A stretch of 49,028 nt of DNA from Bifidobacterium breve (GTDB taxonomy: Bacteria > Actinomycetota > Actinomycetes > Nanopelagicales > Nanopelagicaceae): the NCBI GenBank assembly GCA_945863115.1, contig CAMAYZ010000008.1, positions 1 through 49,028 on the forward strand, given 5' to 3'. Below the pieces are notes generated by a model that had not been told where the DNA came from, did no database searches, and saw nothing but the letters and a program-made list of their open reading frames with translations. Both the position numbers and the translations under genes were made by a program. Shown here one piece after another: positions 1,960 through 11,913 of the stretch (positions are counted from its first letter, which is position 1; each line of letters opens with the position of its first letter).

Positions 1960-2580
1960 TTACTTTCCTCTCGCAGTTGCTATTGCTGCTTTGAATTCAG
2001 CTACTCGGTTCGGAATCTCGGCAACCCCGCCAGAGGTTAATTTTCCGCCAACACCAAAACCGGTTACCCCGGCAGCTATCCAATCCGGAATCGTTTCAAC
2101 ACTTATGCCACCTGTTGCCATCCAATTCAAACCAGGAAATGGTTCACAGATTGCCTTCAGATAATTTGGGCCGAGGGCTGAAGCCGGGAAGAATTTAAGA
2201 ATATCTGCGCCATAACCAAGTGCATCTGCAACATCCGTAGGCGAGGCGACGCCAGGTATCGAGATCAGGCCAGATTGTTTAGTAACTTCAATAACTTCCT
2301 TAGAAACGTGTGGCGAAATTACAAACTTGGCGCCAGCATCTTTTCCAGATAAAACATGGGAGCGATTCATCGCTGTTCCTAGGCCGACATGAACTCCGGT
2401 ATTTGCCGAATTAGAAGCAAACTCTTCAATCAAATCAAATACCGCTGGGGTTGTAGTTGTAAATTCAATTACATCTACCCCAGCAGAAATTAAAGCAGTA
2501 GCGGCGGCGCGGGCTTCGTCAGCAGTCTTGGTTCTAATAATTGCAACCAAACCTGATGCAAATGAAAGTTCGTTAGCCAT
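1960..2580 (-). CDS. eda: 2-keto-3-deoxy-6-phosphogluconate-type aldolase
   Basis: A 206-residue class I aldolase of the KDPG/KHG family. The Schiff-base lysine is in DILKFFPAS, the acid/base Glu is in VIEFTTTTP, and GLNWMATGGI forms the C-terminal phosphate-binding strand. The family splits 2-keto-3-deoxy-6-phospho sugar acids into pyruvate and glyceraldehyde 3-phosphate. The TTTTP form, without the TLRTP arginine of E. coli Eda, is seen in many actinobacterial homologues, so the true substrate could be KDPG, KDPGal or a related acid. Its start overlaps the kinase stop by 8 bases, indicating translational coupling. Confidence 0.85.
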   Translation of the reverse strand: MANELSFASGLVAIIRTKTADEARAAATALISAGVDVIEFTTTTPAVFDLIEEFASNSANTGVHVGLGTAMNRSHVLSGKDAGAKFVISPHVSKEVIEVTKQSGLISIPGVASPTDVADALGYGADILKFFPASALGPNYLKAICEPFPGLNWMATGGISVETIPDWIAAGVTGFGVGGKLTSGGVAEIPNRVAEFKAAIATARGK

Positions 2581-3508
2581 TTATTGCTCCGCTCTTTAAT
2601 ATTCCCTTTTCACCCTTAATCATAAGGGCCCAATCACCGCGGTTTGCCGCCACAGCAGCACCACATTTACTTCCTTGCGCAATCGCATCTTCGATTGAAA
2701 GTCCCCCGATTAGCCCTGAGATAGTTCCAGAAATAAACGCGTCACCCGAGCCAACTGGGTCAACTAATTTCACCTTCACTGGTGTGTAATTAAATCTCTT
2801 GCCCTCGTGCAAAATCCGCATCTCTTCAGGACCAGCGGTCATAATTACGGTTTTAACTCCAAGTGCCGCAACTGTTGCCAAGTTCTCTTCTGGATCCTTT
2901 GAACCAAAGATAACTTCGTATTCATCAACACCACCACTTACGACATCAATATCTTTAATGATCGACTTTAGTGCGGTGCTTGCCTCTTCCTCGCTCCATA
3001 ATTTCTTTCGAAAATTTAAATCAAAACTAATTCCCACCTTGTTTTTTCGAGCAATCTCCAAAGCGCGAATTACCGCTTCTTTACTGCTCTGGGAAATCGC
3101 AACGCTTATGCCAGTCACATGCAGCCACTTAGCTTTGGCTAAAACCTCATCATCTAGATCGGCTGGCGAGAATGTAGAACCGGCACTGCTTCGGCGCAGA
3201 TAAGTGTTTACAAAGGGTTGGGTGCCGCCATGATTTCTAACCAAGGCTCCTGTGTAATTATCACACCGCAGAAAATGATCAGTCTTTAAACCAACTTCAG
3301 CAAACTTTGCTTTGACTGCATCGCCTAATTCATCTGGACCAAGTTTGGTTTGGAAAAATACTTCGAGCCCTAATTGATAGGCAGTAACAGCAACATTGGC
3401 TTCGGTGCCGGCTGCTGAAAAAGCATAGTTGTTGGCCGTTAATACTGAATCAGTATCAACTGTCATAAAAAGTGCGAGTGATTCACCAAAAGTGTAAAGA
3501 TCGGTCAT
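2573..3508 (-). CDS. kdgK: 2-keto-3-deoxygluconate kinase (PfkB family)
   Basis: A PfkB-family sugar kinase that would phosphorylate a 2-keto-3-deoxy sugar acid, giving the aldolase substrate encoded next. The N-terminal FGESLALFM strand, the GTEANVAVTAYQLGL substrate region and the C-terminal DPVGSGDAF anion-hole/catalytic-Asp motif are present. I chose ATG 3508 (311 residues) rather than an upstream ATG at 3565, because MTDLYTFGES matches the family N-terminus and the start overlaps the preceding stop as TAATG. The usual DTxGAGDAF motif here reads DPVGSGDAF, a mild variation. Its stop overlaps eda by 8 bases. Confidence 0.85.
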   Translation of the reverse strand: MTDLYTFGESLALFMTVDTDSVLTANNYAFSAAGTEANVAVTAYQLGLEVFFQTKLGPDELGDAVKAKFAEVGLKTDHFLRCDNYTGALVRNHGGTQPFVNTYLRRSSAGSTFSPADLDDEVLAKAKWLHVTGISVAISQSSKEAVIRALEIARKNKVGISFDLNFRKKLWSEEEASTALKSIIKDIDVVSGGVDEYEVIFGSKDPEENLATVAALGVKTVIMTAGPEEMRILHEGKRFNYTPVKVKLVDPVGSGDAFISGTISGLIGGLSIEDAIAQGSKCGAAVAANRGDWALMIKGEKGILKSGAING

Positions 3509-4275
3509 TAATAAGTAGCCCGACCACCAGATACGTCGAAGGTGAAACCGGTGGTGAAAGAACAAGCTTTAGATGCTGCAAATGCAATTACTTCGGCAAC
3601 TTCATTTGGCTCGCCAAGTCGACCAACAGGAATCTTGGAAACCATATATGCCTGAACATCTGGCGCAACAGTTTCATTAATTGGAGTGCGAATTACCGCG
3701 GGCGCAACAGCATTGATTGTAATTCCGAAAGTTGCACATTCTTTTGCTACACCTTTTACAAATCCAATTACTCCGGCCTTCGAAGAGTTATAGGCAGACA
3801 TTCCGGGGTTACCCTCTTTGCCGGCGATTGAAGCTAGGTGAACGATGCGGCCATATTTATTTGCCTTCATCGATGGCATTAACTCTTGGGTCAGCCATAC
3901 AGTGCCATACAAATTAATTTCAATTGTCTTTTGGAATGCGGCCCAATCAACTTCTTCAACTGGCTTTCCAGTTGGCCCAGATATTCCGGCAGAATTTGCG
4001 AGCGCATGAATTTGACCATGCTCGGCCAAGATTTCGGCTACAACTTTCTTAATTCCAGATTGTGAAGAAACATCTAATGTCTTATAGCTTGCTTTGCCCC
4101 CGGCAGCAGAGATTTCGGAGACCGTAGTTTTTAAGCCAGCTTCATTGAGATCAAGACAGACCACATGCCCACCGCGTTCTGCAATTAACTCTGCAGCAGC
4201 CTTGCCGATGCCACTAGCTGCGCCAGTTACCAACACAACTTGCCCGCCGAAACTAGTTAAATTTGAAGTGGCCAT
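3508..4275 (-). CDS. Classical SDR dehydrogenase, first gene of leftward sugar-acid operon
   Basis: A 255-residue classical SDR. TGAASGIG (17-24) binds the cofactor, ANSAGISG is a variant NNAG strand, LASIAGKEG carries the catalytic Ser, and YNSSKAG gives Tyr and Lys. FTTGFTFDVSGGRATY is the usual C-terminus. It resembles sugar dehydrogenases and 2-keto-3-deoxy-L-fuconate/gluconate-type dehydrogenases. As first gene of the operon it is a candidate for the initial aldose oxidation or a keto-acid oxidation. The upstream 101 bases form a divergent promoter region with the lactonase operon. Substrate not determinable from sequence. Confidence 0.78.
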   Translation of the reverse strand: MATSNLTSFGGQVVLVTGAASGIGKAAAELIAERGGHVVCLDLNEAGLKTTVSEISAAGGKASYKTLDVSSQSGIKKVVAEILAEHGQIHALANSAGISGPTGKPVEEVDWAAFQKTIEINLYGTVWLTQELMPSMKANKYGRIVHLASIAGKEGNPGMSAYNSSKAGVIGFVKGVAKECATFGITINAVAPAVIRTPINETVAPDVQAYMVSKIPVGRLGEPNEVAEVIAFAASKACSFTTGFTFDVSGGRATY

Positions 4276-4376: not shown

Positions 4377-5267
4377 ATGAGTCACGATATGAATCTCAAA
4401 CTTTGGGATGAGCGGGCATGTCATGTTGGTGAGGGCCCAGTAGCGATTGGTCCGAATAATTCTGAAATTTTATGGGTTGATATTTACGGAAAAAAAGTTC
4501 ATCGCAGAAATCTTGAAACAGGTATGACAAGTAGTTATGAAATGCCTGAGGAAGTTTCTTTTGTAATCCCAGCAGTTGATGGATCCGAACTTTTAGGAAC
4601 TGCAAATGGTCCAGTTCGCAGATTGGCTGATGGATCAATACAAAAGTTGCCAACCCGAATTGATGCAGATGGCGTTAGCGCCACATTTAAAAATCGCTGG
4701 AACGATGCGAAAGTTGCACCAGATGGCCACTTATTTTTAGGAAGCATGCCTTACGACTGGGCCGAACATCCAAATGCATGTGGACTTTATCGTCTAGATA
4801 AAACTGGAAAAGAATTAACTAGAGTTCTAGATGGCGTCTGGCTAAGCAACGGACTTGCTTGGTCGAAAGATGGCAAGACCATGTTTTACATCGATACCAT
4901 GGCTAAATCGATTGATACCTTTGATTACGCAGATGGCCAGATTTCTAACCGCAAGGTGCGCTGGCGTTTAACCGATGATTCACAAGGTTTACCCGATGGC
5001 ATGTGCGTGGATGCCGAAGATGGAATTTGGGTTGCGTTTTGGAATGGCTCTTGTCTGCGCCGTTTCGATAAAGATTTCAACATCACTGATGTGATCGAGA
5101 TGCCTGTGCCAATGGTGACAAGTTGCGCATTTGTTGGACCAGATTTCAAGCAAATGGTTATTACATCAGCACATGATGGCGTGGCTAATCCCGGCAAAGA
5201 CTGGGGCAAGACATATATCTGCACACCTAAAGTTCCAGGTGTTGCACCTACTCTCTTTCCAAATTAA
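4377..5267 (+). CDS. SMP-30/gluconolactonase family lactonase
   Basis: A 296-residue six-bladed propeller lactonase. HVGEGPVAI supplies the first metal-ligand Glu, SNGLAWSKDGKTMFYIDT the Asn ligand blade, and GLPDGMCVDAEDGIWVAFW the Asp-containing blade, all characteristic of SMP-30/GNL/LRE-like enzymes. These open sugar-acid lactones formed by NAD-dependent sugar dehydrogenases. It is the first gene of the rightward operon and diverges from an SDR dehydrogenase gene, which fits a dehydrogenase-lactonase pair. The start at 4377 is supported by a leaderless -10 box. Aldonolactone identity unknown. Confidence 0.85.
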   Translation: MSHDMNLKLWDERACHVGEGPVAIGPNNSEILWVDIYGKKVHRRNLETGMTSSYEMPEEVSFVIPAVDGSELLGTANGPVRRLADGSIQKLPTRIDADGVSATFKNRWNDAKVAPDGHLFLGSMPYDWAEHPNACGLYRLDKTGKELTRVLDGVWLSNGLAWSKDGKTMFYIDTMAKSIDTFDYADGQISNRKVRWRLTDDSQGLPDGMCVDAEDGIWVAFWNGSCLRRFDKDFNITDVIEMPVPMVTSCAFVGPDFKQMVITSAHDGVANPGKDWGKTYICTPKVPGVAPTLFPN

Positions 5268-5272
5268 TTAAT

Positions 5273-5293
5273 AACTAACAGGCAACTAACAGG
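5273..5293 (+). repeat. Short tandem duplication after lactonase stop
   Basis: AACTAACAGG occurs at 5273-5282 and 5284-5293 (period 11), just after the stop codon at 5265-5267. The second copy leads into the ribosome-binding region of the next gene. Confidence 0.7.
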
Positions 5294-5304
5294 TAAGGAT
5301 TGAA

Positions 5305-6237
5305 ATGACCGAATCAAGTAGCTGGCCATCAACTCGTGATCCCCAAGGCCCAATGAAGAAATCAATTTCACTCCTCGCCAAGCAGAAGATTCAGAGCAGC
5401 GATGCTGATGGGTTGCCAGAATCCACAAAGCGTTTTGCTGATGGTTCACGCTGGAAGATTGAAATTCCATCAGTCGAAGGCCCAGCCGCATTTAAAGTTG
5501 TTTTGGAAGAAGCTAAGAAACATAAATTGCCGGTCGCCCGTATTTCACAGGGCTCTGGAATCATGATGCTGACTGATGTCGAAATTAAAGAGATGGTTGC
5601 AATTGGCAAGAGCGAGAATATTGAAGTCTGTTTATTCGTCGGCCCACGCGCATCATGGGATATCGGCAAGCAAGTTCTTTCATCTGCTGGTGGTGTAGCA
5701 AATCCAACACTTCGTGGCGCTGACCAACTTCGCTATGCAGTCGAAGATGTTCTACACGGCGCGGATTTAGGTCTGCGTTCAATTCTTGTTGGTGACATGG
5801 GCTTGTTAAAAGTTTTGGGCGAAGCAAAGCGCAATGGTGATCTACCAAGTGATTTCATTCTTAAAACCTCAGTTGCGATGCCTTGCAACAATCCAGCCAC
5901 TGCCGAACTAATGGTTTCAATGGGCGCATCGACGTTGAATCTTGCAACTGATCTTTCACTTCAGCAAATCGCTGCAATCCGCGCACAAGTAGATGTTCCA
6001 GTCGATGTTTATGTCGAAGGTCCAGATGATTTCGGTGGTCCGGTTAGACACTATGAAGTTCCAGATTTGGTTCGAGTTGCGGCGCCAATTTATCTAAAAT
6101 TCACCGTTCGAAATTCTCCAGGACTTTATCCATCCGGAACCCATATTCAAGGTGTTGTTGAATCAACTGCCCGCGAACGCGTTCGTCGCGCCTCGATTGG
6201 TTATTCAATGCTCACTCGCTATGGTTTTGAAAAATAA
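5305..6237 (+). CDS. U32-peptidase-like TIM-barrel protein of a sugar-acid operon
   Basis: 310 residues. I do not recognise a defined function. The N-terminal third (FADGSRWKIEIPSVEGP), alternating strand/helix pattern, DVYVEGPDDFGGPVRHYE segment and C-terminal ARERVRRASIGYSMLTRYGF are reminiscent of U32-family TIM-barrel proteins that sit in sugar gene clusters, not of secreted proteases. There is no signal peptide. The third-quarter sequence (PCNNPATAELMVSMGASTLNL) resembles the phosphate-binding end of a barrel. It lies 37 bases after the lactonase and 3 before the next SDR, so it is probably co-transcribed and catalytic in the same pathway. The role is open. Confidence 0.45.
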   Translation: MTESSSWPSTRDPQGPMKKSISLLAKQKIQSSDADGLPESTKRFADGSRWKIEIPSVEGPAAFKVVLEEAKKHKLPVARISQGSGIMMLTDVEIKEMVAIGKSENIEVCLFVGPRASWDIGKQVLSSAGGVANPTLRGADQLRYAVEDVLHGADLGLRSILVGDMGLLKVLGEAKRNGDLPSDFILKTSVAMPCNNPATAELMVSMGASTLNLATDLSLQQIAAIRAQVDVPVDVYVEGPDDFGGPVRHYEVPDLVRVAAPIYLKFTVRNSPGLYPSGTHIQGVVESTARERVRRASIGYSMLTRYGFEK

Positions 6238-6240
6238 TTA

Positions 6241-6915
6241 ATGCCAAATCTCTTAATTTTCGGATCAACCGGAACTCTTGGCGGGGCAATTCTTGATAAG
6301 TTTCGCTCTGAAAAATGGGATGTAACCTGCGCGGTGCGCAAGGTGGTAAATGATTGCGATATTCAACTACCACTAACTTCAGCCATTCTTGCCGGTAAGA
6401 AATTTGATGCCGTTGTATTTGCGCAAGGCGCCAATGTAAATGGATCTGCAATGCAGACCGGAACCAAAGAACTAAATGAATTATTTGAAGCAAATGTAAC
6501 TGTCATCGCCGAAAGTGTTTCGACACTTATGGGCGCAGATGCCATAAATCAAGGTGGCCGCGTAGTTATCTTGAGTTCGCTCTGGGAGCAGTTCACTCGT
6601 CAAGAAAAATTCGCTTACTCAGTTACTAAAGCCGCAGTTGGTGGTTTAGTTCGCTCGCTGGCCGTTGATCTTGGTCGCCAGAAGAAAATTCTCGTTAACG
6701 GAATCCTTCCTGGAATCGTCAACAGCCCAATGGTTGCACGCACGCTTTCACCAGAACAGATTGCAAATGTTGTCAGCCAAACACCAGTTGGCGATCTTGC
6801 AACTCCGGTTGATGTTGCAAATAGTGTTTATATGTTTGGCTCAAGTTTAAATACCGGTATCTCTGGCCAGAGCATCTTCGTTGATCGCGGATTTTCAGTC
6901 GCCAGAACGATTTAA
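6241..6915 (+). CDS. Short SDR family oxidoreductase
   Basis: 224 residues, shorter than most classical SDRs (about 250), with FGSTGTLGG as the cofactor glycine motif. VFAQGANVNG stands where NNAG usually lies, an Ser is in VVILSSLWE, and YSVTKAAVGG gives the catalytic Tyr/Lys. The C-terminal GISGQSIFVDRGFS is typical. The missing length is between the second and third strands, so the nucleotide-ribose pocket may be reduced. It starts 3 bases after the U32-like gene and ends 5 bases before the kinase gene. Probably oxidises or reduces an intermediate of this operon. Confidence 0.72.
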   Translation: MPNLLIFGSTGTLGGAILDKFRSEKWDVTCAVRKVVNDCDIQLPLTSAILAGKKFDAVVFAQGANVNGSAMQTGTKELNELFEANVTVIAESVSTLMGADAINQGGRVVILSSLWEQFTRQEKFAYSVTKAAVGGLVRSLAVDLGRQKKILVNGILPGIVNSPMVARTLSPEQIANVVSQTPVGDLATPVDVANSVYMFGSSLNTGISGQSIFVDRGFSVARTI

Positions 6916-6920
6916 TTTTC

Positions 6921-7895
6921 ATGGCAAAAGATCTTCTTGATGAAACCACGGTCGTTGCCTATTTAACTAACCGCGGAATCATTAGTGGACCGGCCGAAGT
7001 TGAAGAACTAACTGGTGGAGTTTCAAATGTAGTTCTTGCCGTTAAGTCCGGAGCTAAAGACTTAGTTTTAAAACAAGCACTGCCTCAATTAAAGGTCGCT
7101 GCAGTTTGGAAGGCGGATCAACGCCGCGCAATTGTTGAAGCCAATGGCATGAAACTTCTTCATTCAATTACTCCAGATAGTGTTCCAGATTTAGTTGATT
7201 TCGATCCCGAAGAATTTACGTTAACTATGGAGCGCCTGCCCCGCGAATGCACAGTCTGGAAGAGCGATCTACTTGATGGCGTAATCAAGCCAAGCATTGG
7301 CGCAGATTTAGGTCGCATCCTTGCAACCTGGCACAACTTCGGTGCAGATAACAAAGAAGCCCGCGATGCTTACATGGAAGATTCGCTCTTCGATCAATTG
7401 CGGGTAACACCGTTTTATCGTGCAGTTGCAAAGGTAAATCCCCCACTTGATGCCCGAATCCAAGAGTTAATCACTGAGATTTCAACTTTAAAAATTACTT
7501 TGGTCCATGGTGACTTTTCACCAAAGAACATCATGATTACAGCCGCCGACAAACCAATCGTTCTTGATTTCGAAGTAATGCATACCGGTAATCCAGTATT
7601 TGATCTCGGTTTTGTCTCTGCTCATCTGCTCTGCAAATATCTGCGAACCGAAGATGAATCTCAAAAGAAGCCCCTACGCGAAACTGCTATTTCATTCATT
7701 AATTCATATGCTCAGGCTTGCAATATCAAAGTTGCTAAATCACTTCCGCATCACGTAGCAGTGATAGCACTTGCCCGCGTCGAAGGAGTTTCTCCAGTTA
7801 ACTATCTAGAGACGGCCGGAAAGGCTAGAGTTCAAAGCGTGACCAAAGCTGCGTTGGCTAATCCGCAAATAACCTTCGAAGGTTTATTTGCATGA
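6921..7895 (+). CDS. APH/ChoK-fold small-molecule kinase
   Basis: A 324-residue kinase of the aminoglycoside phosphotransferase/choline kinase/methylthioribose kinase fold. The N-terminal lobe has GGVSNVVLAV and the ATP-anchoring Lys in LVLKQAL. LVHGDFSPKNIMI is the catalytic HGDxxxxN loop and VLDFEVMHTGNP the metal-binding DxE/D motif. It probably phosphorylates a hydroxyl of a sugar acid rather than an antibiotic, because its stop overlaps the start of the enolase-like gene by 4 bases (ATGA) and the operon begins with a lactonase. The phosphorylated position and substrate are unknown. Confidence 0.75.
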   Translation: MAKDLLDETTVVAYLTNRGIISGPAEVEELTGGVSNVVLAVKSGAKDLVLKQALPQLKVAAVWKADQRRAIVEANGMKLLHSITPDSVPDLVDFDPEEFTLTMERLPRECTVWKSDLLDGVIKPSIGADLGRILATWHNFGADNKEARDAYMEDSLFDQLRVTPFYRAVAKVNPPLDARIQELITEISTLKITLVHGDFSPKNIMITAADKPIVLDFEVMHTGNPVFDLGFVSAHLLCKYLRTEDESQKKPLRETAISFINSYAQACNIKVAKSLPHHVAVIALARVEGVSPVNYLETAGKARVQSVTKAALANPQITFEGLFA

Positions 7896-9160
7896 GCATC
7901 AAGAATTTAGTTGGCTACCAAGTTCTCGATTCCAGAGGGCGTCCAACCGTTGCAGTAACTCTGACGATGTCAGATGGATCAATTCATACCGCAAGAGTTC
8001 CATCAGGTGCATCTACTGGCGCCCATGAAGCGAAAGAACTTCGCGATACCGATAGCAAGTTAGCTGAGAAGTTTTACGGCGGAAAATCTGTTTACCAGGC
8101 CGTTGAAAATATTAATTCAGTAATCGCACCACGACTTAAGGGACATCGCCCAATCCCCCTTGCAACCGATGGCATCTTGGTCGAACTCGATCACACACCA
8201 GATCACCACATCTTGGGTGCAAATGCGCTTCTTGCAGTTTCACTTGCAGTTGCGAAAGCGGCTGCGCATACAGCAGAACTTTCACTTGCCAGATTTTTTC
8301 AACCAGAAGGTAAATTACTTATCCCAATGCCGATGGTAAATATTCTCTCTGGCGGTGCACATGCAAATCGCACAATGGATATTCAAGATGTTTTAGTTCT
8401 GCCGAATGGCGCAACTTCATTTGCCGAAGCACTCTCCTGGATTGTTGCAATCCGCGAACTTGCCGCAAGTAAGGGCGCAAAGTCCGGCGCAATCACACAC
8501 CTGATTGCTGATGAAGGCGGCCTTGGTATTGCCTTTCCAACAATTGACCACGCACTGGAATTTGTCACCGATTGCATAAACGGTGTTGGTCTATCACCAG
8601 AGAAAGATGTCAGCCTGGCTATCGATGTTGCTTCAACTCAATTCTTTGATGGCACAAATTACAATTTAGTGGCACTAAATAAAAAGTTTTCATCCGGGGA
8701 ATTCATTGCATTCGTATCTAAGTTAGTTTCAGAACATCCTGTTCTTTCTATCGAAGATCCCTTCGCTGAAGATGATTGGCAATCCTGGACCCAATTTATG
8801 ACGATGGCACCATCGAAGTTGCAGGTCCTTGGTGATGATTTATTCACTACAAATCTTGCTCGCCTACAGCGCGGAATCGAAGAGAAAAGCGCCAATGCGA
8901 TTCTGATCAAAGCCAATCAAAATGGTTTGGTTACATCGACACAGAAGGTTTTAAACACTGCTCAAGCAAATAACTTCAAAACAGTTGTTTCTGCTCGCAG
9001 CGGTGAGACTGAAGATTCTTGGCTTGCTGATCTTGCAACCGGCTGGCGTGCTTCTCAAATTAAAGTTGGTTCAACTCATGGTGCAGATCGCACCGCAAAA
9101 TGGAATCGATTGTTAGAGCTTGAAGCTACTGAGAATTGCGAATTCGCTAAACCTTTTTAA
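7892..9160 (+). CDS. Enolase paralogue with altered active site, in sugar-acid operon
   Basis: 422 residues, full enolase length and both domains. Kept: Ser loop VPSGASTG (37-44), His157, Glu208 (ADEGG), metal ligands Asp245, Glu288 and Asp315, the general base Lys340 and Lys391. Changed: the catalytic Glu of the usual QEF motif is Asp166 (QDV), and the His of the usual SHRSGE motif is Ala368 (SARSGE). Enolases interconvert 2-phosphoglycerate and phosphoenolpyruvate. The changed residues line the pocket near the leaving hydroxyl, so a larger 2-phospho sugar acid is plausible. It follows a kinase gene with a 4-base overlap. A second, canonical enolase would be expected elsewhere in the genome. 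Confidence 0.85.
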   Translation: MSIKNLVGYQVLDSRGRPTVAVTLTMSDGSIHTARVPSGASTGAHEAKELRDTDSKLAEKFYGGKSVYQAVENINSVIAPRLKGHRPIPLATDGILVELDHTPDHHILGANALLAVSLAVAKAAAHTAELSLARFFQPEGKLLIPMPMVNILSGGAHANRTMDIQDVLVLPNGATSFAEALSWIVAIRELAASKGAKSGAITHLIADEGGLGIAFPTIDHALEFVTDCINGVGLSPEKDVSLAIDVASTQFFDGTNYNLVALNKKFSSGEFIAFVSKLVSEHPVLSIEDPFAEDDWQSWTQFMTMAPSKLQVLGDDLFTTNLARLQRGIEEKSANAILIKANQNGLVTSTQKVLNTAQANNFKTVVSARSGETEDSWLADLATGWRASQIKVGSTHGADRTAKWNRLLELEATENCEFAKPF

Positions 9161-10884
9161 TGGGAGTGGCGAGGAATTCCGCTACCGGAAGAACCGTTTA
9201 GGAAATCAAGATCTGCGCCAAGGTGCGCTTGTTGCACTGTCTCGTAATAAAGCTTTGACCAACCACGTGTGTGCTTAGGTGCAGGTGCGACCCAGGCCGC
9301 TTTTCGCTTTGCCATCTCTTCTTCAGAGACGAGTAAGTTGATTGAACGATTTGGAACATTGAGTTCAATCATGTCGCCGGTTTTTACTAATGCAAGTGGG
9401 CCACCAACTGCAGCTTCTGGTGAAGTGTGAAGCAGAACAGTTCCGTAGGCAGTTCCTGACATACGTGCATCAGAAATACGAACCATGTCAGTGATTCCTT
9501 GTTCTAGAAGTTTTCTTGGAATTGGCATATTGCCAACTTCTGGGAAACCTGGGAAACCGCGAGGACCGGCATGTTTCAAAACAAGAACAGTGTCTTTTGT
9601 GACGGGAAGATTCATATCTTCAGATGCAATTAAATAATCTTCAATCTCTTCAAAGACAAGTGCTTCACCGGTGTGAACCATGAGTTCTGGTGTTGCAGCT
9701 GAAACTTTTAGCACGCATCCATCAGGTGCAAGTGAACCCTTTAGAACAACGATGCCAGAGCCTGCCTTTTGGAAAGGCTTAGATGCTGGAGTAATTACAT
9801 CTGCGTTCCAAGATTCTGCCGTTGCAATGTTCTCTTTTACGGATTTTCCAGAGACGGTTATGTGCTCGGTGTGCAACATGCCTTCGATTTCCTTCATAAC
9901 AGCAGGAAGCCCGCCGGCATCGAAGAATTCTTCCATCAAATATTTACCAGATGGCATTAAGTTCACAAGGACTGGAACTTCACGAGCGAGTGTGTCGAAA
10001 TCATCGAGATCAAGTTTTACCCCGATACGACCAGCAATTGCAAGTAAGTGAACGACAGCGTTCGTTGAACCACCGATTGCTGCATTTACTTTGATTGCAT
10101 TTTCGAATGCTTCGCGGGTAAGGACCTTTGAAAGAACTTGATCGTCATAAACCATTTGCACAATTCGGCGACCAGCTTCTTGTGAAGTTGAGAAGCGACG
10201 AGCATCTACTGCTGGGATTGCTGCGCTTCCTGGAAGTTGAACACCAAGTGCTTCAGTAACGCATGCCATTGTTGACGCGGTTCCCATGGTCATACAAGAA
10301 CCATTTGAACGCGCAGAACAAGATTCCATTGCGAAGAATTCTTCGATACTTAATTTACCTGCGCGAATTTGTTCGGAATATTTCCAAACTGCAGTTCCAG
10401 AACCGAGAGTCTCACCTTTGTAGCGACCATTTAACATTGGTCCACCGGTAATCATTAAAGTTGGTAGATCTACAGATGCTGCGCCCATCAACATTCCTGG
10501 TGGGGTCTTATCGCAACCAGCAAGAAGAACAACACCATCAAGTGGATTCGAGCGAATTAACTCTTCGGTCTCCATTGCAAGCAAGTTGCGCCACAACATT
10601 GTTGTTGGACGTTGAACTGGTTCGCCAAGTGACATGGTTGGGAATTCAAGTGGAAAACCGCCAGCTTCCCAGACTCCACGCTTTACAGCTTCGGCTACGC
10701 GATCGAGGTGAGCGTTGCAAGGATTTAATTCTGACCAAGTTGTTGCGATACCAATTACTGGCTTGTCGGAAAATACTTCAGAGCCAAAGCCCATATTGCG
10801 AAAGCGTTCGCGATAGATGTATCCATGCTTGCCTTCAGCCTTGAACCAATTCTCGCTACGTCTCTTGAATACCTCTTCGCTCAT
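9157..10884 (-). CDS. IlvD/Edd-family sugar-acid dehydratase
   Basis: A 575-residue Fe-S dehydratase. Three candidate cluster cysteines sit in SELNPCNAH, LLAGCDKTPPGM and SNGSCMTMGTAS, the arrangement of the [2Fe-2S] L-arabinonate-type enzymes. The CDK motif and a Ser near GSGTAV/SARMSG fit the family. It removes water from an aldonic acid (pentonate or hexonate) to give a 2-keto-3-deoxy acid. Length and C-terminus match pentonate/hexonate dehydratases better than dihydroxy-acid dehydratase. Its stop and that of the convergent enolase-like gene share bases 9157-9160 (TTAA). It is transcribed from its own promoter. The exact aldonate is unknown. Confidence 0.85.
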   Translation of the reverse strand: MSEEVFKRRSENWFKAEGKHGYIYRERFRNMGFGSEVFSDKPVIGIATTWSELNPCNAHLDRVAEAVKRGVWEAGGFPLEFPTMSLGEPVQRPTTMLWRNLLAMETEELIRSNPLDGVVLLAGCDKTPPGMLMGAASVDLPTLMITGGPMLNGRYKGETLGSGTAVWKYSEQIRAGKLSIEEFFAMESCSARSNGSCMTMGTASTMACVTEALGVQLPGSAAIPAVDARRFSTSQEAGRRIVQMVYDDQVLSKVLTREAFENAIKVNAAIGGSTNAVVHLLAIAGRIGVKLDLDDFDTLAREVPVLVNLMPSGKYLMEEFFDAGGLPAVMKEIEGMLHTEHITVSGKSVKENIATAESWNADVITPASKPFQKAGSGIVVLKGSLAPDGCVLKVSAATPELMVHTGEALVFEEIEDYLIASEDMNLPVTKDTVLVLKHAGPRGFPGFPEVGNMPIPRKLLEQGITDMVRISDARMSGTAYGTVLLHTSPEAAVGGPLALVKTGDMIELNVPNRSINLLVSEEEMAKRKAAWVAPAPKHTRGWSKLYYETVQQAHLGADLDFLNGSSGSGIPRHSH

Positions 10885-11058: not shown

Positions 11059-11913
11059 ATGCGCATTGCACGCCTTGGCGAATTCAATAAGGAAAAGCCT
11101 GCCGTTGTTTTAAATGACACCGAAGCGGTTTTTGTCGATGATGTAATTGCGGATTGGAATCGTGTTGAACTTGAGAACGGCGCACTTGAGAAAGTTACAA
11201 AGCTAGATCTCTCAGCCCGTCCTAAGGTTAAGATTTCGGATTACCGTTTAGGTTCCCCGGTTGCTCGTCCAACCAAAGCTATTTGTATCGGCTTGAACTA
11301 TAAGCAACATGCAATTGAAACTGGAGCTACCCCACCAGTTGAGCCAATTATTTTTATGAAAGCACCGGACACTGTTATTGGTGGTAACGATGATGTAATC
11401 ATCCCGCCAAACTCAGTTAAGACAGATTATGAAGTTGAAATCTGTGTTGTAATAAAGAAGCGCGCACTTTATTTGAAATCACCAGAAGAAGCTGCTGACT
11501 ACATTCTGGGTTACACAGTTTCGCAAGATGTTTCAGAGCGTTACTGGCAGGTTGAACGTTCTGGCCAATGGGTAAAGGGGAAATCATTCCCAACATTTAA
11601 TCCAGTTGGTCCATGGATTGTTACAACAGATGAATTAAAGAACCCGCAGAATCTTCGTCTCTGGTGCACAGTTGATGGCGAATCTCGTCAAGACTCAAAT
11701 ACCAGTGACATGATCTTCGATATCAATTACTGCGTCTGGTATCTGTCACAAGTTATGGAACTTCATGCTGGCGACATCATTAACTCTGGAACACCACAAG
11801 GTGTTGGAATGGGCTTTAAGCCAGAGAAATACCTAAAGGGTGGCGAAGTAGTTAAGACTGGAATTGATGGAATTGGTTCAATTACGAACCACTTCAAAAA
11901 CTACAAGGCTTAA
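11059..11913 (+). CDS. FAH-family hydrolase/dehydratase of sugar-acid catabolism
   Basis: 284 residues of the fumarylacetoacetate-hydrolase fold. RPTKAICIGLNYKQHA begins the core, EPIIFMKAP and KTDYEVEICVVI provide the metal-binding Glu residues, and SGTPQGVGMGFKP is the family signature. Close relatives include 2,4-diketo-3-deoxy-L-fuconate hydrolases and 2-keto-3-deoxy-pentonate dehydratases. With the adjacent IlvD dehydratase and the nearby dioxovalerate dehydrogenase, either a hydrolytic (pyruvate-yielding) or dehydrating (alpha-ketoglutarate-yielding) role is possible. AAGGAG lies 7 bases before the ATG. The stop shares TTAA with the convergent rbsD. Confidence 0.8.
   Translation: MRIARLGEFNKEKPAVVLNDTEAVFVDDVIADWNRVELENGALEKVTKLDLSARPKVKISDYRLGSPVARPTKAICIGLNYKQHAIETGATPPVEPIIFMKAPDTVIGGNDDVIIPPNSVKTDYEVEICVVIKKRALYLKSPEEAADYILGYTVSQDVSERYWQVERSGQWVKGKSFPTFNPVGPWIVTTDELKNPQNLRLWCTVDGESRQDSNTSDMIFDINYCVWYLSQVMELHAGDIINSGTPQGVGMGFKPEKYLKGGEVVKTGIDGIGSITNHFKNYKA

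Follow-up and report, generated by a model that had tools for sequence, protein, structure and literature searches.

The described systems closest to the one discussed here are enolase itself (EC 4.2.1.11; TIGR01060), the sugar-acid dehydratases of the MR/MLE families, which belong to the enolase superfamily and catalyze the same kind of reaction, and the S-methyl-5-thioribose (MTR) kinase MtnK (TIGR01767; PDB 2pun and 2pyw). Two metabolic schemes bear comparison as well. The serine cycle contains a glycerate 2-kinase, enolase and phosphoenolpyruvate (PEP) carboxylase; and the non-phosphorylative routes for pentoses and for L-fucose/L-rhamnose, which involve 2,4-diketo-3-deoxy acid hydrolases, operate, to our knowledge, without a kinase and without a true enolase. 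Here we describe two adjoining genes, termed KIN and ENO, in a stretch of 49,028 nucleotides (contig CAMAYZ010000008.1, positions 1 to 49,028), referred to throughout as ‘the window’. The host is a tiny freshwater bacterium of the Nanopelagicaceae, with an assembly of 1.32 Mb in 31 contigs, 93.5% complete (G000). KIN (6921-7895, + strand; 324 aa) encodes an APH-fold, MTR-kinase-like small-molecule kinase (APH 63.3 bits, above the cut-off). ENO (7892-9160, + strand; 422 aa) encodes an enolase paralogue (Enolase_N, PF03952, 135.4 bits against a cut-off of 35; Enolase_C, PF00113, 245.6 against 21.5).

Neither protein coincides with its nearest relative. MtnK provides both the best NCBIfam match of KIN and its closest solved structures (Foldseek: 2pun_B, TMq 0.83; 2pyw_A, TMq 0.85), but KIN scores 82.3 bits against a family cut-off of 275 and shares 18-20% identity in the fold alignments. 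No methionine-salvage neighbours of KIN were noticed in the lists of open reading frames (ORFs), which were inspected without a model-based search for them. The HGD and DFE motifs of KIN are kept in 21 aligned relatives, and its Pfam matches up to E 0.01 include neither class I (PF02595) nor class II (MOFRL, PF05161) glycerate kinase. ENO retains both enolase domains, together with the catalytic base and the residues that bind metal, phosphate and carboxylate, but has Asp and Ala where enolase has a Glu and a His, and it sits on a branch of its own that is linked to a kinase gene. In contrast to the MR/MLE dehydratases, it falls in the enolase subgroup proper (MR_MLE_C, PF13378, 21.8 bits, below the cut-off of 29.4). 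With the non-phosphorylative routes the window pair shares its surroundings of lactonase, IlvD, short-chain dehydrogenase (SDR) and FAH genes. A limited search of the open-licence literature found no published description of the kinase–enolase pair.

A conserved pair of overlapping genes

The stop of KIN and the start of ENO overlap by 4 bases (7892-7895, + strand; ORF coordinates). An earlier note on this DNA had described five + strand genes, the last four tightly packed and KIN and ENO overlapping, and ORF coordinates and Pfam scores agree: the lactonase (SGL), U32-like, SDR and KIN genes are spaced by 37, 3 and 5 bases, and the overlap follows. Its treatment of all five as one unit did not hold up, as the pair occurs without U32, SGL or a window-type SDR in many genomes. 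The core is instead a conserved, co-inherited, overlapping two-gene module, KIN–ENO, to which the U32 and lactonase genes are local additions. A 4-base overlap is found at 64 of 71 junctions examined, taking the start nearest the kinase stop and with some loci representing the same genome twice.

Among 151 genomes of the host’s order, 43 contain both genes, two only KIN, one only ENO, and 105 neither (Fisher p about 4e-34, uncorrected for kinship). These counts apply cut-offs of E <=1e-125 for KIN (plus G053, where the gene is split over two contigs) and at least 490 bits for ENO, at which six genomes with a diverged kinase and a diverged Asp/Ala enolase count as ‘neither’. KIN occurs alone in G133 and in G073, where it lies at a contig end; ENO occurs alone in G132, as a partial gene. 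Distances between KINs and between ENOs correlate (rho 0.78 in 33 pairs, against a maximum of 0.35 in 2000 permutations; species relatedness uncorrected). When 119 genomes were searched with the enolase instead, the three best matches (the host’s own, G171 and G156) each adjoined a kinase. One kinase, of L090, was found in a locus survey and missed by the script used for the residue alignment. The earlier note had proposed looking for co-conservation in other genomes; the kinase–enolase pair is co-conserved, so the idea is not refuted.

The pair is not confined to the host’s relatives. The best 80 loci from a scan of 84,980 species genomes with a kinase alignment include close relatives of KIN, among them some in genomes that bear the names Planktophila, Nanopelagicus and Nanopelagicaceae. 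In Planktophila lacus (L078), KIN–ENO occurs without U32, near arabinose isomerase-like and ABC transporter genes, and in L094, L099, L102, L105, L109, L116 and L119 the pair follows an MR/MLE-family gene, and an epimerase-like gene is present in divergent orientation. ENO adjoins KIN in 17 of 22 more distant loci among these 80 (L129-L150; kinase 35-43% identical); the 17 include Microbacterium, Nocardioides, Nocardia, Gordonia, Actinomadura, Streptomyces, Acidimicrobiales and a Chloroflexi bin. At another, L143, an Asp/Ala-type ENO lies about 9 kb from the kinase. Plasmids carry pairs in bacteria (Rhodococcus, Embleya, Sphingobium, Rhizobium, Caballeronia and Azospirillum; about 4.5 kb separates enolase and kinase in the Rhizobium loci) and in haloarchaea (Halomarina and Haladaptatus). 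The pair thus extends over Actinomycetota, the Chloroflexi bin, alpha- and betaproteobacteria and haloarchaea, among varying neighbours. It is also rare, for of 396 genomes sampled within the phylum only four yielded a kinase hit at E 1e-30, and one of these hits is weak and has no ENO next to it.

The Asp/Ala branch of enolases

The host genome has a second, ordinary enolase on contig C2, 43% identical to ENO, so the earlier note was correct in calling ENO a paralogue. Two positions separate the types. Position 166 (window numbering) is D in 93 of 93 ENO-type rows and E in 37 of 37 other enolases; position 368 is A in 90 and G in one of the 91 readable ENO-type rows, and H in all 37 others. 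A first alignment gave the same pattern, with D166 in 83 rows and E in 28 other actinobacterial enolases; wherever position 368 could be read, A (one G) accompanied D and H accompanied E. The 93 rows comprise the window, 20 fetched relative loci, 35 from L071-L128, 17 from L129-L150, two from L152-L153, 12 from plasmids and six from the enolase query, and genomes overlap between these sets. Residues H157, E208, D245, E288, D315, K340, R369, S370 and K391 are unchanged wherever readable. What was first noted as a local operon is, then, part of something larger: a cross-phylum kinase–enolase module with a fixed residue signature.

By motif numbering, D166 and A368 presumably occupy the positions of yeast E168 and H373, and we take H373 to lie near C3 of the substrate. 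According to PMC4667285, Glu166 and Glu207 interact with the hydroxyl of 2-phosphoglycerate (2-PG), a contact of the E168 equivalent with the C3 hydroxyl; PMC4450660 treats the roles of the lysine base and of E211 as the general acid that aids hydroxide departure. The literature is not uniform on the role of E168, because PMC10619443 assigns the E168 equivalent to the 2-PG carboxylate and the H159 equivalent to the hydroxyl.

In the six genomes of the order that have only a diverged kinase, the second enolases, retrieved by enolase query, are of the Asp/Ala type in 6/6 and the other enolases ordinary in 6/6; the plasmid enolases L197 and L198, kinase-free in their stretches, are ordinary. A quick tree parts 54 Asp/Ala rows from 37 ordinary rows by one branch (SH-aLRT 99). 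Since the Asp/Ala side includes proteobacterial and haloarchaeal members, the branch would fit one origin plus gene transfer; the ordinary enolases in this tree include two from proteobacteria and none from haloarchaea. Of 44 genomes with ENO, 42 retain an ordinary enolase as well, which marks ENO as an extra enzyme. One genome, G120, has two ENO-close enolases, on contigs C17 and C1 (69% and 66% identical to the window protein), and an ordinary one besides. Deposited annotations call ENO-type proteins phosphopyruvate hydratase or enolase.

Proposed reaction and its alternatives

We consider it possible, if somewhat short of probable, that KIN and ENO catalyze consecutive reactions, a 2-O-phosphorylation and then an enolase-type dehydration, on a substrate that is probably not D-2-phosphoglycerate. 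KIN would transfer phosphate from ATP to the hydroxyl on C2 of a 2,3-dihydroxy carboxylic acid. In ENO, K340 would then take the C2 proton while two metals, R369, S370 and K391 hold the carboxylate and phosphate, and expulsion of the C3 hydroxyl would yield the enol phosphate of a 3-deoxy-2-keto acid, a homologue of PEP. The replacements near C3 in the pocket (Asp for Glu, Ala for His) suggest a substrate other than D-2-phosphoglycerate; most simply it would carry a carbon chain on C3, as in a tetronate or a longer aldonate. The pairing, the overlap, the residue pattern and the gene contexts are observed, whereas the two reactions, what each residue does (by homology), which hydroxyl is phosphorylated, how large the substrate is and what becomes of the enol phosphate are inferred; we hold the mechanism—2-O-phosphorylation and elimination—more firmly than the identity of the substrate. 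That a branch of true enolases and an APH-fold 2-O-kinase turn 2-phospho-aldonates of at least four carbons into PEP homologues, in particular, is doubtful. The earlier note had guessed at a kinase followed by an enolase-like dehydration of an aldonate. As a mechanism this was reasonable and is now better supported, by the conserved pair, the kept beta-elimination residues, the altered C3 side and the many sugar-acid neighbours; the aldonate that it named is a candidate substrate.

Several observations weigh against this proposal. ENO passes the TIGR01060 cut-off for ordinary enolase (412 against 300 bits), no conserved new residue able to bind a longer chain was identified in it, and in G077 and G132 the Asp/Ala enolase is the only enolase shown. 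The Asp/Ala enolases were mostly reached through kinase- or U32-anchored searches, so that their constant association with a kinase is partly by design. Nor is the association complete: G133 has KIN with no Asp/Ala ENO anywhere in its assembly, and no ENO was found in the stretches of L137, L145, L146 and L148 or in that of the weak kinase-like locus L154.

What the neighbouring genes say about the substrate is mixed. We surveyed 45 loci with both genes, nearly all not of the U32 type, counting neighbours on both strands throughout each stretch; two of the loci, L151 and L163, are the window’s own, and the related plasmids L156/L160 and L161/L193/L195 are counted apart. FAH-family genes occur in 18, CtBP-type 2-hydroxyacid dehydrogenases in 15, and IlvD or MR/MLE dehydratases in 17. 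A scan of 84 neighbour proteins gave 13 matches to FAA_hydrolase, nine to 2-Hacid_dh_C and seven to adh_short_C2. Fifteen of the 18 FAH loci show no IlvD or MR/MLE, and in L134 and L142, where SDR and FAH genes accompany the pair, the stretch yielded no dehydratase of either kind. This hints at most that the pair may take the place of a dehydratase; the idea is weak because in the window an ordinary aldonate dehydratase adjoins the pair, and one of the fifteen, L147, carries a mannonate dehydratase gene of the UxuA family behind FAH. UxuA was sought in L147 and the 84 neighbour proteins only, and IlvD, MR/MLE and UxuA are the dehydratase families that the searches covered.

The FAH and 2-hydroxyacid dehydrogenase neighbours would also fit glycerate, and the alternative that survives best, though we think it rather unlikely, is a route from glycerate to PEP, in which KIN would be a D-glycerate 2-kinase of a new kind, with the APH fold, and ENO an enolase dedicated to 2-phosphoglycerate. 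The glycerate could arise from FAH cleavage of 2,4-diketo-3-deoxyhexonates, as an aldolase product, or from hydroxypyruvate through the CtBP-type dehydrogenase; an HpcH/HpaI-type aldolase lies beside the pair in L136 and L162. The steps follow the order of the serine cycle, and the likeness extends to two Rhizobium plasmids (L161 and L193) on which PEP carboxylase (1113.7 bits against a cut-off of 815 in L161) lies beside a CtBP-type dehydrogenase and KIN, with VOC, Asp/Ala enolase and cupin genes close after KIN. PEP, and hence glycerate, would be a fitting intermediate there; no PEP carboxylase appears in the stretch of L195, the third of the Rhizobium loci. The host genome gives no match to a class I or II glycerate kinase at E 0.001, so KIN could fill that role, and a further class is plausible since the three known ones, according to PMC2063504, are mutually unrelated. 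Against this stand the 42 of 44 ENO genomes that already possess an ordinary enolase able to use 2-PG, and the constant alteration of the supposed dedicated enolase at its C3-pocket residues; in the latter respect, and in the fold of KIN, the pair also differs from the serine cycle. In L094 (12248-14092), moreover, the gene immediately following ENO encodes a class I glycerate kinase, which would make KIN redundant as a mere D-glycerate kinase, although the limits of that operon are unsure because the next gene encodes an unrelated Sua5/YciO-family protein.

An L-glycerate route, in which KIN makes 2-phospho-L-glycerate, unusable by ordinary enolase, and ENO converts that enantiomer to PEP, would account together for a dedicated enolase and for the glycerate-like contexts (FAH, PEP carboxylase). 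FAH enzymes of the LRA6 type yield L-configured hydroxy acids from L-6-deoxysugars, and the FAH protein of the window resembles that type. We nevertheless regard this route as improbable: K340, the base for the C2 proton of D-2-PG, is unchanged, the fixing of carboxylate and phosphate by the metals would turn the proton of an L-substrate away from it, and the dehydrogenases frequent as neighbours are of the D-isomer type (PF02826). Enolate chemistry in ENO without loss of a C3 hydroxyl, for instance expulsion of some other group or action on a phosphonate-type substrate, is highly improbable, for while at least one of the two ENO changes is on the leaving-group side and a PEP mutase-family gene, with others, stands in line with the pair in Azospirillum, E208, equivalent to the general acid described in PMC4450660, is kept in 93 of 93 rows, and the PEP mutase neighbour occurs in one locus only among those surveyed in detail.

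Genomic setting and significance

In the window, the pair closes a run that begins with SGL (4377-5267, + strand), an SMP-30/gluconolactonase-like lactonase (Pfam SGL 221.7 bits, above the curated cut-off), followed by the U32-like TIM-barrel protein (5305-6237, +; 310 aa) and the SDR (6241-6915, +; 224 aa; adh_short_C2 94.3 bits, above the Pfam cut-off). To the right, an IlvD/EDD aldonate dehydratase gene (9157-10884, - strand; L-arabinonate dehydratase-like, 843.3 bits against a cut-off of 882) converges on ENO with a 4-base overlap, and the FAH-family hydrolase (11059-11913, +) has as its best NCBIfam match 2,4-didehydro-3-deoxy-L-rhamnonate hydrolase (265.4 bits against a cut-off of 500); a D-ribose pyranase-like protein is also encoded on this side. 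To the left, on the - strand, profile matches indicate a KDPG/KHG-type aldolase (1960-2580), a KDG-kinase-like PfkB kinase (2573-3517; start chosen, the ORF list having 3565), and a divergent SDR (3508-4275; Pfam/NCBIfam matches), putatively a 2-keto-3-deoxy acid dehydrogenase. Another SDR lies on the same strand, and a further ORF on this side was judged epimerase-like by eye only. With SDRs, KDG kinase, aldolase, IlvD/EDD and FAH flanking the operon, the setting looks like one of oxidative sugar-acid breakdown.

U32 relatives occur in 42 of the 151 genomes of the order, 35 of them at >=72% identity to the window protein and seven at only 43-47%. All 35 also have a kinase relative (E <=1e-40), in six cases only a diverged one. 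The fetched loci include 21 with a kinase of at least 45% identity, and in 18 of them U32, SDR, KIN and ENO follow one another without a break, an arrangement that is more than chance; L045 shows no SDR, L070 stops after the kinase at a contig end, and in L059 the pair lies away from the U32 relative. SGL is upstream of U32 in nine of the 21. The kinase is only diverged (35-39% identity) in L052-L054 and L056. The U32-like protein itself matches Peptidase U32 (PF01136) at 38.9 bits against a cut-off of 22.4, over 87 residues only. Characterised U32 enzymes carry cluster-binding cysteines; the alignment of 26 U32-like sequences contains no invariant or nearly invariant cysteine. The model of the protein, of fair quality (pLDDT 83.6), is a TIM barrel whose fold matches are near-tied among unrelated families. 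The earlier note had the barrel acting after the enolase, a step without general support, as the pair often occurs without U32. A second U32-like family (about 41-47% identity; about 45% in L057-L066) lies in most of its loci near a different IlvD homologue and a conserved set of genes that lack annotation, so U32 proteins may serve sugar-acid metabolism independently of KIN–ENO.

Elsewhere the company of the pair is diverse. On the Azospirillum plasmid (L196, 1945-11270), genes for a PEP mutase-family protein, an iron alcohol dehydrogenase, a TRAP transporter, PhyH and GntR stand in line with KIN–ENO. The annotated KIN and ENO frames overlap on the haloarchaeal plasmids L158 and L162, near a ketol-acid reductoisomerase homologue, a small cupin and several MR/MLE genes. 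In L135 and L139 (Microbacterium) and L155 (Sphingobium) the pair lies among aromatic-degradation-looking genes with glyoxalase/dioxygenase-family proteins, joined in the Microbacterium loci by FAD monooxygenase-type proteins.

Enolase is among the most conserved of enzymes, and a second type with its own kinase, if that is what ENO is, would mean that many genomes carry misleading names. If the reactions are as proposed, they would constitute an ATP-activated dehydration of sugar acids, parallel to the IlvD and MR/MLE dehydratases, with the phosphate conserved in the enol phosphate; should the product prove to be PEP, KIN would be a further, unrelated glycerate kinase. For the enolase subgroup the proposal would add a new substrate and, for freshwater actinobacteria, a hidden step in the catabolism of sugar acids or hydroxyacids.

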